The notes under the pieces are model-generated. The model did not search any database and had not been told where the DNA came from. It worked only from the letters and a program-made list of their open reading frames with translations. From the NCBI GenBank assembly GCA_027493955.1, contig JAOSJT010000001.1, forward strand, positions 62,001-126,000: a DNA stretch of 64,000 nt. The letters run 5' to 3'. The translations under genes were made by a program, and so were the position numbers. Of the stretch, positions 30,208-45,585 are shown piece by piece; the first letter of the stretch is position 1, and each line of letters opens with the position of its first letter. Source of the stretch: Bacteroidia bacterium (GTDB lineage: Bacteria; Bacteroidota; Ignavibacteria; SZUA-365).

Positions 30208-30399
30208 GAAAATACCCTGTAAAATGGTACAAAATACAAGATACACTTCTTTTGTCTGTGTCACCAGCGAGTGATGCTTTAGTGGAGAACGGTCGTACCG
30301 TGTTGTCGTCATGTATATGCGGCGGGAGCGTACGCGAGGAGATGCATGCTGGTGGGTTTGTGCGACCGATGATACGCGATACGAGAGCGGCTGGAAGGC

Positions 30400-30423
30400 G
30401 ATTTGGGCGATTCATGTATCGCC
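30400..30423. repeat. REP-like palindromic repeat, copy 1
   Basis: 24-base unit that begins GATTTGGGCGATTCATGTAT and ends CGCC, with inverted arms GGCGAT/ATCGCC around TCATGT. Identical to copy 2 at 30445-30468, start-to-start distance 45 bases, same orientation. Located just downstream of the RAYT-like gene. Confidence 0.8.
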
Positions 30424-30444
30424 ATCTGACCGAGGCCCGAATCG

Positions 30445-30468
30445 GATTTGGGCGATTCATGTATCGCC
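30445..30468. repeat. REP-like palindromic repeat, copy 2
   Basis: Perfect copy of the 24-base unit at 30400-30423; here the arms extend to 7 bases (GGGCGAT/ATCGCCC). The pair of direct copies resembles the tandem REPs seen around RAYT genes. Confidence 0.8.
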
Positions 30469-30691
30469 CAATTTCTCCCCAGGACCCGGAAACACCCCCG
30501 CCACACCAGGTTCCAACCCTCAAAACCACCACCCAAACCAGCACACTCCTCCATTTCCGACCATCATCCCTCACCAGATGGACCCAAATCCAGACAAATG
30601 CACAGAGCTTTCCCTCCCCGCCTGACGTCCGTCGTCCCGGAGCGCTGTCCCTGTCTCCTTGCGATAAAAAAATGTGCTCTTCGGCTTCCGC

Positions 30692-31504
30692 TTACTCGGA
30701 TAGAAAGATCCGGGCAGGACCCAGGCTCCGGATCACCGAGCCTCGCCCGCCCGCCATGCCACCGGCGCCTCCCCCACGCGCGACGCCCTTCTTGGATGCA
30801 GTGCGCACCGCCTCATCTCTCCGCGCGCCCGTCAGCAACAGAACGCGGCCGAGAAGCATCGCCCCCGCGAGCTGATCCGATACCGCGCGCCCTTTGCTTC
30901 CACGTACGGGCAGCGCACCCGTGCCGCCGAATTCCGATGCAAGAACATCGGCCAAGGTGAAGGCCTGCTTCCCCTTCTTCGTCTGAGGCGCGGGGTCCAC
31001 CACCACACGGCTCCACTCCTCCCGCAACTCCGCGTACACACGGGCCAATACGTCCTCGTCCTCCAGAACGCATGATGCGTAGCGCCGCGCCCAGACTGCG
31101 CCGCCATCCCTGCCGAACAACGCGTTGATGCGATGCGCGCTGTTCATCTTCAGATACCCCATGAACTCCGGCAGTGTCATGATGCGCCGGTAGTATATCC
31201 ATTCGTCACTGTCCTCCGGCGGCGCTTTCCGGGGGTTCCGGACTTCCGTGATCTCCAGGGCCATCTCCACCTCGGAGGGACGAATGTTCAGTTCGTGAAG
31301 GCGAATGCACGGGAAATTCTGCAACGCCTGACCGAGCACATCGAGGAATGCGCGTCCGGCGTCGCTGAGCGTGGTGATGCCGTCTTTCGTCGTTCCGAGA
31401 ATTTCAGCATTCTTCCTGGTCTTGAACACGACGAGATGCTTCGACAGCTTCGAATAGTCGTACTCCCGCACGCGGCGGGTACTGAGTTCTTTGAGTCGTT
31501 TCAC
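30692..31504 (-). CDS. RAYT-like (Y1/IS200-type transposase superfamily) protein with altered HUH motif
   Basis: About 270 residues. The layout matches REP-associated tyrosine transposases: a first strand with KHLVVFKTR, a middle DGITTLSDAGRAF...RLHELNI, and a C-terminal MTLPEFMGYLKMNSAHRINALFGRDGGAVWARRYAS-like block (quoted in parts: YLKMNSAHRINALFGR, VWARRY). Where RAYTs have MPNHxH, this protein has RPSEVEM: both metal-binding His are Glu (Glu78, Glu80). Tyr117 in FMGYLK could be the nucleophile but is one position off my alignment. About 100 extra residues follow the domain. The GTG start at 31504 has GGAG 8 bases upstream. It is flanked by two REP-like repeats. Probably inactive or repurposed; family assignment is by eye. 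Confidence 0.65.
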   Translation of the reverse strand: MKRLKELSTRRVREYDYSKLSKHLVVFKTRKNAEILGTTKDGITTLSDAGRAFLDVLGQALQNFPCIRLHELNIRPSEVEMALEITEVRNPRKAPPEDSDEWIYYRRIMTLPEFMGYLKMNSAHRINALFGRDGGAVWARRYASCVLEDEDVLARVYAELREEWSRVVVDPAPQTKKGKQAFTLADVLASEFGGTGALPVRGSKGRAVSDQLAGAMLLGRVLLLTGARRDEAVRTASKKGVARGGGAGGMAGGRGSVIRSLGPARIFLSE

Positions 31505-31682
31505 AAAATGCTCCCTAAGCGTTGGAAAAGACGATTTATTAAATATGTATGTGCTCGCACTCCGGACAAGGCAGAAAACCGCCGCTGCTCGAAGGCCGGC
31601 GCACAGGCTCCTTTCGTCGGGTTTGTGCCTTCGCAACGGGTTCGGTAGCTTACTGCTTCTTGTCAAACGTCTCCGGACTGTC

Positions 31683-33359
31683 ATGAAGAACCGAAGCAAT
31701 CTCCTCACCAGTATTCTCATTACGTCCGTTGCACTGCTCCTCATGCGGTGCGGCGGAAAACAGGATAATCACATGATGGAATCAGAGCAGTTGAAGCTCG
31801 TACGAGAGCGTATAGCCATGTTTGCGGAGACGGAGGTTTCCGCTGACCTCTCGGCACTCACTGAACGCGAACGCGCCTGTGTTCTGAAACTGGTGCAGGC
31901 CGGGAAGCTTGCGGATGCCATTTTCTGGATGCAATCCTCACATGACGCGGCAGCCGTACGAGATTCGCTTGCGACGCGTGACGACGACGCAGCAAAGGAT
32001 TTTCTCACGTATGTGATGATCCATTACGGCCCTTATGATCGGATTTTTGAGGGCGAGCGTTTCGTCGGACACGGCCCGGAGCGGAAACCGCTCGGGGCTG
32101 GTCTCTATCCGCCGGATATGTCGCGGGAGGAGTTCGAGAGCTGGGTGGCGGCCCATCCTGAGCAGCGCGCCGCCTTAGAAAGTCCCTACACGATCATCGT
32201 GCGCGGTGACGACGGTTTACGCGCGGTACCCTACCATACATGCTATCCGCAGGTACATGAGATGTCCCGCCTGTTGCTCGAAGCCTCGGAACTCGCCGAC
32301 AATCCCGGTCTCAGGAAATATCTCGCTCTCCGCGCCAAGGCGGTTATTACCGACGAGTATTATGACAGCGATATGGCCTGGATGGATCTGAAGACAAACA
32401 ACATCGACGTTGTCATCGGTCCCATCGAGAATTATGAAGATGGGCTCTTCAACTATAAGACGGCATACGAATGCGCTGTCATGGTAAAGGATCCGGAGGG
32501 GACACGGGAACTACAGATGTTCATTTCCCATATTGATGCATTCGAAAAGGCTCTCCCCATCGAAAGCAAGTACACACGGACGTCCGCAGGCAGCGGCAAT
32601 ATCCTCGAGGTCGTGAACATCGTGTACTTCGGAGGCGACTTCCACGCAGGCGTGAAGACCATCGCGGCGTCTCTCCCCAACGATCCCCGTGTAACGGAGA
32701 AAAAGGGCGGCAAAAAGCAGATGTACAAGAATCTGATGGAAGCGAAGTTTGATAAAATCGTCGTGCCCATTGCGGAGCGTATCCTCGATCCGGCTCTGCA
32801 TCCATTCGTGAACCGCAGTTCATTCACAAGCTTTGTGACGCTGCACGAGGTCTCGCATACCCTCGGCATGCCCTACGTGTATGGGAAGCCGGAGTTGAGC
32901 GTACGCCGGGCTCTCAAGGACCGTTACTCCGCCATCGAGGAATGCAAGGCCGACGTGCTCGGTTTGTACAACAACATGGTTTTGCTCGATGAGAAAATCA
33001 TCACCAAGGAGGCCCTGAAGAAAAGCATTGTCACCTACGTGGCCGGTCTCTTCCGGTCCCTGCGTTTTGGTGCCGAGGAAGCGCATGGTAAGGCAAATCT
33101 CATCCAACTCAACTGGCTGATTGACCGCGAGGCCGTCATACGGAGCGGAAAGCGGTGGAGTATCAATTTCGATCGTTTCATGCCGGCACTCACCGAACTC
33201 GCCCGCGAAGTGCTGATGCTGGAGATACTTGGTAACTACGACGGAGCCGGTGAGATGCTCACACGATACGGCGGCATCACACCTGCGATACAGGAAACCG
33301 TAGCGGCGCTGGCGGAAATTCCGCGGGATTTGAACACGAAATATTCTGTGCTTCGATAA
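31683..33359 (+). CDS. Lipoprotein-like zinc metallopeptidase of the dipeptidyl-peptidase III (M49) type
   Basis: About 558 residues. N-terminal signal ends in a possible lipobox (LLLMRC, Cys23), implying an exported lipoprotein. The zinc site is His388-Glu389-x-x-His392 (LHEVSHTLG) with the third ligand in EECKADVLGLY (419-424), the EECRAD motif of M49. Classical DPP III has HELLGH (HExxxH); the shorter HExxH form occurs in a bacterial branch often called Zn-dependent hydrolase. It should remove peptides from the N-terminus or act as an oligopeptidase in the periplasm. The start at 31683 is chosen for the signal peptide; the frame runs back to 31491. Divergent from the RAYT-like gene. Confidence 0.88.
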   Translation: MKNRSNLLTSILITSVALLLMRCGGKQDNHMMESEQLKLVRERIAMFAETEVSADLSALTERERACVLKLVQAGKLADAIFWMQSSHDAAAVRDSLATRDDDAAKDFLTYVMIHYGPYDRIFEGERFVGHGPERKPLGAGLYPPDMSREEFESWVAAHPEQRAALESPYTIIVRGDDGLRAVPYHTCYPQVHEMSRLLLEASELADNPGLRKYLALRAKAVITDEYYDSDMAWMDLKTNNIDVVIGPIENYEDGLFNYKTAYECAVMVKDPEGTRELQMFISHIDAFEKALPIESKYTRTSAGSGNILEVVNIVYFGGDFHAGVKTIAASLPNDPRVTEKKGGKKQMYKNLMEAKFDKIVVPIAERILDPALHPFVNRSSFTSFVTLHEVSHTLGMPYVYGKPELSVRRALKDRYSAIEECKADVLGLYNNMVLLDEKIITKEALKKSIVTYVAGLFRSLRFGAEEAHGKANLIQLNWLIDREAVIRSGKRWSINFDRFMPALTELAREVLMLEILGNYDGAGEMLTRYGGITPAIQETVAALAEIPRDLNTKYSVLR

Positions 33360-36722: not shown

Positions 36723-38144
36723 TCAGTTGCTATAGAAATCGATTTGCCTTTCGATCGCAGCCGAACATACCTTGCAGAAGGGGCCGAGTGTCAGTGAGAA
36801 CATTCTGCAGTCGAGAGAAGGCCGGTACATGCCTTCGGAGATGTAGCCCGCTCCTTCGAAAGCGCCTACCTTGCCGAGGAGCTCGGGATTTTCTGTTATT
36901 GCCTTACTACGCTTCATGATGGGGTCGCGCTTGGCATAATAGTCGGCGGCAAGTCGGTCGAGTGTCGAGATACTCGACCGCAGTTCGTCGTACTCCTTTT
37001 TTCCCCAGTCTGTGGGGAGACTGAGGCCTTGTGTGAGATGCTCCCGCCATTTTACGTCCGGGGCGTCGAGGAGGCGCGTAATGTTCGGTTCCCACGGCTC
37101 GACTCCGGCGGGATAAAACTCTTCGTACCCGGTGGAGGAACTGTAGTACTCGTCACCGAGCCCGCCGAAGCTATGGCCAAACTCATGTACGTACACATAG
37201 TCGCGCTGCCACTCCTGCCCCTTGTTGTTCTCGATTGTGTACGTGGTGGTATAGAGCTGATAGATGCCGCCGCCGCCGTAGCGGCTGTCATTGATGAGGA
37301 TGCAGATAAAGTCATACGGTGCCGCGGAAGCGATGTCGCGGAGTTCACGGTTTGCTTCGGTGAGGACGTACCGTTCACTACCGAAGGTGTTGTACATGCT
37401 GCCGAGCGCGGTATTTTTCCACACATTCTTGTCCGGTATGTCGATGCCGGATTCCGTGGAGACGGCACAGAGGGCGCGCACATTGAAGTCCTTCTTCCTC
37501 TCCTTGAAGGGGGAAGTATCGAACATCACATCGTTGAAATGCTTTGCATCGGCCTTGAATTTCTCCATATCCTTGGCCGCGTAACCATCGCCGATAATAA
37601 GAATATCCACCTTCCTGTGCATGTCTCCGTTATCCATGAGTGTGACGAGTTCCGATGCCGGCGCACGGCGCTCGATGCTGACAACGGTAGGATCGTTCGG
37701 ATCTATGACCGCGCTGAATTTCTCCTCGAAGATCAGATACTTGTTCCGACGGCTGAGCGTGAGTTGGACATGGCGTTTGGGGAAGGGGAAGCGAACGCTT
37801 TCATGAAACGACTTCCACACGCCGCGGCCCGCTTCCGCTGTGGTTTGCCACTCGTTGAACACAGTGGAGAAGCCACGCGAATAGAGCAGCATACCACTCT
37901 GCAGGTCGTAGATGCGAACCAGAAATTCCCCAAGATTCAGGGTATCGATGAGGTTCTTCGTGCTCCCGGCCCATGGGCCTTCGTGGAACACCTTGTCGAG
38001 GGTGATTTTCTCCTCGCCGCGCGTGCCGAGGTGATAATAATCCACGCGCATGGTCTTGTTCAGGAAAAAGCGGTGAAAATCAACTTGAGCTGTAGCCGGG
38101 ACTGTGAGCAGGACGAAGAGCAGGATGGTTGATTTGAATTTCAT
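36723..38144 (-). CDS. Secreted M64-family metallopeptidase
   Basis: A 473-residue exported zinc peptidase of the IgA-peptidase M64 family. Signal peptide MKFKSTILLFVLLTVPATAQ. An N-terminal beta-sandwich of about 150 residues precedes the peptidase domain, which begins VDILIIGDGYAAKDMEKF. The zinc site is HExxHxxGxxxD-like: His320-Glu321-x-x-His324 (VHEFGHSFGGLGDEYY), followed by EPWEPNIT, both characteristic of M64. No T9SS domain is present, so it is probably periplasmic or exported by another route. Substrates are unknown; immunoglobulin cleavage should not be assumed for an environmental organism. Confidence 0.93.
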   Translation of the reverse strand: MKFKSTILLFVLLTVPATAQVDFHRFFLNKTMRVDYYHLGTRGEEKITLDKVFHEGPWAGSTKNLIDTLNLGEFLVRIYDLQSGMLLYSRGFSTVFNEWQTTAEAGRGVWKSFHESVRFPFPKRHVQLTLSRRNKYLIFEEKFSAVIDPNDPTVVSIERRAPASELVTLMDNGDMHRKVDILIIGDGYAAKDMEKFKADAKHFNDVMFDTSPFKERKKDFNVRALCAVSTESGIDIPDKNVWKNTALGSMYNTFGSERYVLTEANRELRDIASAAPYDFICILINDSRYGGGGIYQLYTTTYTIENNKGQEWQRDYVYVHEFGHSFGGLGDEYYSSSTGYEEFYPAGVEPWEPNITRLLDAPDVKWREHLTQGLSLPTDWGKKEYDELRSSISTLDRLAADYYAKRDPIMKRSKAITENPELLGKVGAFEGAGYISEGMYRPSLDCRMFSLTLGPFCKVCSAAIERQIDFYSN

Positions 38145-38496
38145 GAATTCCTCGATTGCGGGTTGAGGGCGTTGGCCTATTGAGGAAAATTACGGATTTT
38201 GGCGGGATTGGAGAAGTATCTCACGGGAAAGCGGCGGACAATGGGAAGCGGGGGAGAGATGCCGTACGGGAGTATCCCTCAGCTGTGTGCGCTGCCACAA
38301 CCTGCGGCTGCGATTTCTCACAACCTGGCCACACAGTGGATGATCTCGTTTCCCCTCTGTTGTTTTCTCTCGACAGTTGAAGTGCCTTTGCTACGTTATC
38401 GCTTTTCTCCTATGTTGTTTTTGTACGCTGGACTGCAATTGCAACTTTGGCACGGGATTTGCCATATACGGGGAATATCAAAAAGGAGATATCGTC
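38145..38496. other. Intergenic region between divergent secreted-protein genes
   Basis: About 350 bases without a supported gene. A possible promoter for the downstream lipoprotein is TTGCAA at about 38438 with CATATA after 18 bases, but this is weak. A good AAGGAG ribosome-binding site is at about 38484. Confidence 0.4.
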
Positions 38497-45193: not shown

Positions 45194-45585
45194 GTTACCC
45201 GGAAAAAGAGAGATGTTAAGCACTCATGCAATCTTCAATCTACGCCCCCCGTCTACGCAAAGCAATGTCTTTCGCTGTCCGCTGGAGCGTGCTTGTTGAC
45301 TCATACATCATTATCCTCAAGGGTTTCATCATCGCATGCGACTGTTTGCGTATCCGTCTGCAGGCCCATGGGTAAGCCTGAGCCTGTGTACGCGGATGAA
45401 TACGGATTGTCATGGATTCATGCGGCGTTTTTTCATCGCTGGAAAGATCGTCTTTCACACAGTGCGATCATGGGCGATACATGAAGCGCCCGCATCCGCG
45501 GATTGCGGGCAATTGCGTCCCCGCATGCTTTTCCCTATATTTTTCGCACCTCGTTCTCCGGACTGTACCAGCACATGGATACACT
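45194..45585. other. Intergenic region with a REP-like element
   Basis: About 390 bases between divergent murA and the coiled-coil membrane gene. It contains a third, reverse-oriented copy of the REP-like palindrome at 45472-45491 (listed separately) and a following CCCGCA...TGCGGG hairpin. No gene is supported. Confidence 0.5.
45472..45491. repeat. REP-like palindromic repeat, dispersed copy
   Basis: The minus strand reads GGGCGCTTCATGTATCGCCC, differing at one of 20 bases from the same core in copy 2 (30449-30468, GGGCGATTCATGTATCGCCC). It lies 15 kb from the RAYT-like gene, in an intergenic region, as expected for dispersed REP elements. Confidence 0.65.

Follow-up and report, generated by a model that had tools for sequence, protein, structure and literature searches.

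A multi-copy family of RAYT-like proteins lacking the HUH motif and accompanied by palindromic repeats

The locus described here raises the question of what a RAYT-like protein may still do once the residues of its nuclease centre have been replaced. In the accessible text of the published accounts, HUH and the tyrosine are conserved throughout the aligned RAYTs (PMC3733652), Asn 119 joins the histidines in metal binding, members lacking the core motifs are judged non-functional and were excluded from a census (PMC6006769), and multiple copies in host genomes were not found (PMC2817692). An earlier note on the window (a stretch of 64,000 bases, corresponding to bases 62001–126000 of a single-contig genome of 5,237,942 bases, or 5.24 Mb) had described a RAYT-like protein without the HUH motif beside two perfect REP-like palindromes, on the premise that RAYTs are single-copy. 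The RAYT-like character, the missing motif and the repeats on the 3' side all hold; the palindromes are not perfect and the gene is not single.

The gene, its fold and its nuclease centre

The features of the locus are collected in Table 1. The frame is uninterrupted and reads ...IRPSEVEMALEI... The gene is likely to start at the GTG at 31504 rather than at the upstream ATG at 31744, since in the copies L002, L003, L004 and L007 the upstream frame is closed 11 codons earlier, L008 and L009 have an ATG at the same place as the GTG, and a Shine-Dalgarno-like sequence was read by eye ahead of it. In most of the other copies of the two subfamilies described below, GGGAG likewise stands ahead of the start, again as read by eye. 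The upstream flanks of the subfamily-1 copies turn unrelated past approximately position 31582. Within the protein the RAYT core spans approximately residues 8–168 and is followed by a C-terminal extension (approximately residues 169–270); these 100 or so additional residues, already remarked on in the earlier note, are borne out by the alignment past the core.

Table 1. Features of the locus, with positions in the window.
Feature	Position	Strand	Basis
HUH-less RAYT derivative, 270 amino acids, likely GTG start	30692–31504	-	Profile match to HUH-intact RAYTs and fold
GGGAGCA, Shine-Dalgarno-like	31509–31515	-	Read by eye
5' stretch common to other subfamily-1 copies	31505–31582	-	Promoter-like by position only
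Former HUH motif, R75-P76-S77-E78-V79-E80	31265–31282	-	Codons counted from the GTG start
Former catalytic Tyr/Asn helix, A158-E-L-R-E-E-W164	31013–31033	-	Codons counted from the GTG start
G-rich 3' untranslated stretch, stop codon to first palindrome, near-constant length	30472–30691	-	Coding-strand GC skew 0.46
Gene-proximal palindrome TTGGGCGATTCATGTATCGCCCAA, 9-bp arms, without GTAG tag	30448–30471		Repeat search and stem inspection
Second palindrome copy TTGGGCGATTCATGTATCGCC, 45 bp further on	30403–30423		Repeat search
Stretch past the array common to copy L004, approximate right end of the repeated unit	30340–30402		Flank comparison

The window protein scores 14 bits against Pfam Y1_Tnp, below the cut-off of 23, and matches no NCBIfam family, NF047646 included. 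The best E values of 12 family members against Pfam and PHROGs were 0.031 (Y1_Tnp) and 0.1, respectively. The NF047646 cut-off of 80 bits is also missed by the HUH-intact proteins L058, L032 and L086 (50.5, 67 and 69.6 bits), all of which exceed the Pfam Y1_Tnp cut-off. A sequence search of the PDB returned no match for the window protein and only weak, unrelated rows for the family profile. Profile–profile comparison relates the 12-member family to a set of 21 HUH-intact RAYTs (hhalign probability 99.8%, E = 1.7e-27, 158 columns), and this set matches Escherichia coli TnpA-REP (PDB entry 4er8) by sequence with an E value of 2.2e-7.

A structure model of the window protein was built from a five-row alignment and has a mean pLDDT of 60.8; ten-residue blocks within residues 21–160 average 68–88 and residues 193–270 fall below 50, the C-terminal extension being a region of low model confidence. 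All 30 Foldseek matches to this model at E < 0.001 are IS200-like transposases or 4er8. A second structural alignment gave Z = 13.4 for 2a6m (r.m.s. difference of 2.1 over 103) and Z = 12.4 for 4er8 (3.4 over 133 residues), and all Y1 transposases scored above the next-best fold, which is ferredoxin-like (Z = 8.2). Taken with the profile match, these comparisons show a predicted RAYT/IS200 fold to be retained in the window protein, as the relationship proposed earlier implied.

Twelve columns are invariant in the HUH-intact set (R11, Y17, Y23, M75, P76, H78, H80, K120, W139, Q140, Y160 and N164), of which R11, Y17, P76, K119 and W138 are kept by both subfamilies. The alignment places neither of the two HUH histidines, nor the tyrosine, nor the asparagine in either subfamily. 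In the window protein H78 is replaced by E78, H80 by E80, the tyrosine by E159 and the asparagine by E163; the corresponding residues in subfamily 2 are Ser or Cys, Glu, Arg, and Arg or Gly. The PxHxH pattern is found in none of the 13 members of the two subfamilies compared with 47 of the 49 aligned frames of relatives, and tyrosine with asparagine at +4 in 0/13 compared with 46/49, these motif counts covering the fetched loci. The relatives' frames comprise 29 loci standing for the 65 genomes, other than the source genome, that gave a match among the 395 of the phylum sample, all matches outside the source genome from searches of the order (E up to 1e-12) and class (E up to 1e-14), and L015, L021, L023 and L027. 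The phylum and class searches scored no more than six candidates in any one genome. The relatives without PxHxH are L015 (PASAH) and one fragment that ends short of the motif, and those without the Tyr/Asn pair are L015, one fragment and L085, which has a stop before the tyrosine helix. As judged from the alignment, then, the nuclease centre is shown to be gone, with both HUH histidines, the catalytic tyrosine and the metal-binding asparagine replaced. The earlier reading of E78 and E80 in place of the RAYT HxH is confirmed by frame and alignment, and the loss extends to Tyr and Asn.

Such replacements could in principle represent rebuilt chemistry in an active mobile element, with E78 and E80 (and perhaps E163) forming a carboxylate metal site, or with new residues of the C-terminal extension taking part, and the protein moving its own unit. 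The conservation of E80 in all 13 members would agree with this. However, E80 is the only one of the two glutamates that subfamily 2 keeps, position 78 being Ser or Cys there; the tyrosine position is Glu or Ala in subfamily 1 (Ala in L008 and L009) and Arg in subfamily 2, and no new conserved nucleophile was seen in the alignment of the two subfamilies. These observations weaken the carboxylate proposal of the earlier note, and we regard rebuilt chemistry as unlikely.

Copies, palindromes and the lost tag

The window protein matches 16 places in the genome. Subfamily 1, with the motif EVE, comprises nine copies (L001–L009) that are 67–100% identical, together with the fragment L016. Subfamily 2, in which the motif is SIE or CVE, comprises five copies, L010–L013 and L014. 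Three of the 16 places are broken: L002 by an in-frame TGA at codon 3, L014 by a frameshift, and L016 as a fragment. The remaining place, L015 (C1:3210639–3211094), is a lone, more distant member with a degenerate LPASAH motif and no tyrosine. We note that L015 is flanked on both sides by TGGGAGCTTCATGGAACGCCCA arrays with a 37-bp period; its repeat has 84 matches with up to two mismatches, 79 of them in the same orientation, and further arrays of this type lie near C1:783082–783880, 1217898–1218763, 2117661–2118125 and 4095448–4095839.

Just 3' of the window gene, 24 identical bases (GATTTGGGCGATTCATGTATCGCC) occur at 30400–30423 and again at 30445–30468. The gene-proximal repeat is a stem whose 9-bp arms enclose TCATGT, and the arms of the other are only 6 bp long; the identity and placement of the two 24-mers reported earlier are thus correct, but their description as perfect palindromes is not. 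A 19-mer of the subfamily-1 repeat (GGGCGATTCATGTATCGCC) has 46 exact occurrences in the genome compared with none for the reversed control, a count that supports their REP-like nature. Of these, 29 accompany the nine gene copies and invariably lie 3' of them, two are located at the fragment and 15 in six gene-free clusters, four of which consist of longer tandem units of approximately 118–151 bp (L078, L079, L080 and L081). The sequence of these units other than the palindrome partly recurs between L079 and L080. The subfamily-2 palindrome, searched as an 18-mer with up to one mismatch, has ten sites in the genome (one of them mismatched), which lie exclusively on the 3' side of the five subfamily-2 genes. 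A gene copy therefore carries palindromes of its own subfamily on its 3' side in 14 of 14 cases. At 45471–45492 of the window, upstream of an open frame, a palindrome of the same type stands alone in degenerate form (TGGGCGATACATGAAGCGCCCG).

The distance from the stop codon to the first palindrome core is 220–223 bp in subfamily 1 (9/9) and 201–213 bp in subfamily 2 (4/4). This stretch is G-rich on the coding strand in all 13 copies (skew 0.41–0.58) and is the site of the strongest skew in the window (215-base windows moved in 50-base steps); the 200 bases past the array lean to C, again in 13/13 (skew -0.06 to -0.49). The sign of the GC skew thus flips at the palindrome array in every one of these copies (30340–30691 in the window). 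Another region of high GC skew, 38000–38300, was considered as a further copy and rejected on reading its sequence. The position of the array 3' of the gene in every copy, at a near-fixed distance and after a G-rich stretch, would also be expected if the protein acted on RNA, binding the palindrome in hairpin form within the 3' untranslated part of its own message. A structured RNA there was not upheld, as the predicted fold of ten copies did not consistently exceed that of shuffles (z from +0.3 to -3.5), and six palindrome clusters lie apart from any family gene; we consider an RNA-level system very improbable.

Palindromes were also compared for a GTAG or CTAC tag, using stems with arms of at least 9 and a loop of up to 6. 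In the accessible text of one study, the E. coli system tolerates no change in GTAG, other systems being more tolerant (PMC8266576). A tagged stem was found at 25 of 46 HUH-intact loci, 0/15 HUH-less loci and 0/230 shuffled loci. The contrast is imperfect, since 21 of the 46 HUH-intact loci have no tagged stem, the 15 HUH-less loci are paralogues of three groups rather than independent cases, and in only 8 of these 15 did the rule detect the family's own palindrome. HUH-intact relatives with the same palindrome core do carry tags, as in GTAGGGGCGATTCATGAATCGCCCCTAC at L086 and GTAGGGCGGATTCATGAATCCGCCCTAC at L058. A tagged TTCATGAA palindrome, GTAGGGNNNATTCATGAATNNNCCCTAC, is not found in the source genome in the layout searched with up to three mismatches; with up to two it occurs in five of seven other genomes (23 times in G407, 13 in G635, three each in G401 and G007 and once in G520), the same-family genomes G403 and G404 having none. 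GTAG or CTAC lies within 8–10 bases of one of the 46 exact subfamily-1 palindromes, in an orphan cluster, and of one of nine from subfamily 2 (L011), but in neither case does it abut the stem as in the tagged form. On this comparison the tags of the two subfamilies' palindromes appear to be essentially gone. Set against the tagged relatives with the same core, the cleavage guide would thus have been lost along with the cutting residues, protein and palindrome having changed as pairs.

Three HUH-intact Y1 proteins (L017, L021 and L023) are encoded in the source genome, which makes it conceivable that the unit is a cassette unable to move by itself and is mobilised in trans by a different HUH transposase. 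These proteins are distant from the family and have different palindromes nearby, and the genome lacks the tagged TTCATGAA form as searched; moreover, a pure passenger gene would need no constrained protein. We therefore view mobilisation in trans as improbable. The HUH-intact, IS200-like protein at L017:1489–1971 is followed by its own CCCCACACTTACGTATGGGG-type palindrome array, by eye unlike the TTCATGAA type. L021 (C1:1004588–1004785) is a RAYT-like frame with a long insertion between the motif and the tyrosine helix, and contains a palindrome with a GTAG tag, together with repeats, within the coding sequence.

Selection, history and spread

Values of dN/dS (Nei–Gojobori) are 0.11–0.30 in 35 of 36 subfamily-1 pairs and 0.12–0.27 in six of six subfamily-2 pairs, with L002 taken in by skipping its stop and two of the four subfamily-2 sequences beginning at an inner Met; since sequence may be exchanged between copies, as between L008 and L009, these pairs cannot be treated as independent. 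The remaining pair, L008/L009, gives 0.66 on six differences. The C-terminal part is looser: those 35 pairs range over 0.14–0.65 there, and L008/L009 reach 1.54. Changes private to single copies among L001–L005 comprise 30 synonymous and 16 non-synonymous changes, the L002 stop among the latter, which differs from the site expectation with a pooled binomial p of 1.7e-8 (33 other variable columns were left aside). Taken singly, four of the five copies give p < 0.05 and L004 gives 0.11. These codon comparisons show that coding constraint persists and that the proteins are under purifying selection, in agreement with the earlier argument from the intact frame.

An ordinary transposase family that was amplified before its death, is now decaying and has been homogenised by gene conversion might leave a similar set of copies, and the three broken places and the L008/L009 tract described below are what it would predict. 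The low dN/dS values and the excess of synonymous private changes speak against decay, as does a loss that most simply predates the subfamilies, and we see only a slim chance that this account is correct. The earlier note had envisaged a decaying copy with an intact HUH homologue next door; the only HUH-intact proteins found in this genome are the distant ones with other palindromes mentioned above.

In a midpoint-rooted tree calculated without L002 and L009, subfamilies 1 and 2 form one group (support 100/97), with L058 and L059 in a separate one. The support for L015 joining the family is 93/88, at a point where the program warns of long branches meeting. Most simply, the loss of the active centre would predate the split of the subfamilies, that is, both multi-copy groups, in which case the copies spread after the loss. 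The outer flanks of the copies are unrelated. L008 and L009 are 98.65% identical over a tract of 1.1 kb that begins 13 bases ahead of the start and runs up to a palindrome's end. Their upstream stretches, judged by eye, look related although they have diverged, a pattern suggestive of conversion between older copies. At the window locus, the neighbouring gene (31683–33356) is present in eight of 11 other same-family genomes, and none of these eight has a RAYT in the approximately 1.5 kb upstream of it. The methyltransferase-like gene of the other side is absent from these stretches of approximately 1.5 kb, so they offer no clean empty site that would prove insertion by synteny. The location of units at 14 places with unrelated outer flanks, apparently after the loss, and the constraint on the recent copies would also suit the element with rebuilt chemistry considered above; on the other hand, no palindrome was found at a second (5') end by the stem rule, the left end being located only approximately.

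Outside the source genome, tblastn gave no match to relatives on plasmids, a search of viral contigs with the family profile gave no confirmed relative, and the sole match in the genome-contig search was a distant, HUH-intact relative in a Chloroflexi MAG. Among the matches listed in the phylum, order and class searches, none outside the source genome extends past profile residue 200.

Comparison with known systems and interpretation

The family resembles RAYT/TnpA-REP (E. coli TnpA-REP, 4er8; NF047646) in its core fold and in the flanking of each gene by its own palindromic repeat family, and differs from it in the replaced HUH histidines, tyrosine and asparagine, the missing GTAG tag, the several copies per genome and the C-terminal extension of about 100 residues. 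The nearest HUH-intact relatives by score and tree are L058 and L059, from the same taxonomic family. L058 is likewise set among GTAGGGCGGATTCATGAATCCGCCCTAC repeats that share the TTCATGAA core, but both proteins have HUH, Tyr and Asn intact, are each the single match in their genome at the threshold applied, and leave the C-terminal extension unmatched; tagged palindromes number 23 in the genome of L058 and three, all imperfect, in that of L059. The IS200/IS605 TnpA proteins (IS608 and ISDra2) are similar in fold (Z = 11.8–13.4) and in having dispersed copies with unrelated flanks, whereas the present family has no HUH or tyrosine and has palindromes on the 3' side only.

In our view, the interpretation that best fits these data, and one that we hold to be somewhat probable, is a non-cutting, palindrome-binding RAYT derivative that is kept as a gene-plus-REP cassette. 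Of the two readings offered in the earlier note, this corresponds to the non-cutting REP-binding protein; palindrome binding is inferred from the retained fold, the pairing of protein and palindrome within each subfamily, the fixed spacing and the constraint. The protein would still bind its own palindrome, as a hairpin or as a duplex, and would no longer cut it. Gene, G-rich 3' stretch and palindrome array would form one cassette, in which the protein may occupy the array at the 3' end of its own gene and likely regulate or protect its own transcript or the array. The copies would have arisen, and would stay alike, through host recombination or replication rather than through tyrosine-type cutting.

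The spread of the copies is the weak point of the non-cutting interpretation. All of the catalytic residues have been lost and yet dispersal to 14 places appears to have followed, which leaves some mobilising activity unexplained. For this reason we also entertain, as a tentative and less probable proposal, that the lineage became more mobile than its intact relatives after losing both the HUH/Tyr centre and the cleavage tag. The cassettes would then have spread twice, once in each subfamily and together with that subfamily's palindrome. The mechanism would require the protein but no tyrosine chemistry; the protein might, for instance, guide the capture of host replication or repair to palindromes.

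A search of titles and abstracts, in a literature that included few subscription papers, gave no description of HUH-less multi-copy RAYTs. The motif-less members found here are numerous and constrained, and each is paired with its own palindromes, which appear to be untagged. A RAYT without catalysis may consequently be studied as a case in which binding and cutting have become separated naturally, which would make it possible to test whether RAYTs persist by binding REPs rather than by moving them.
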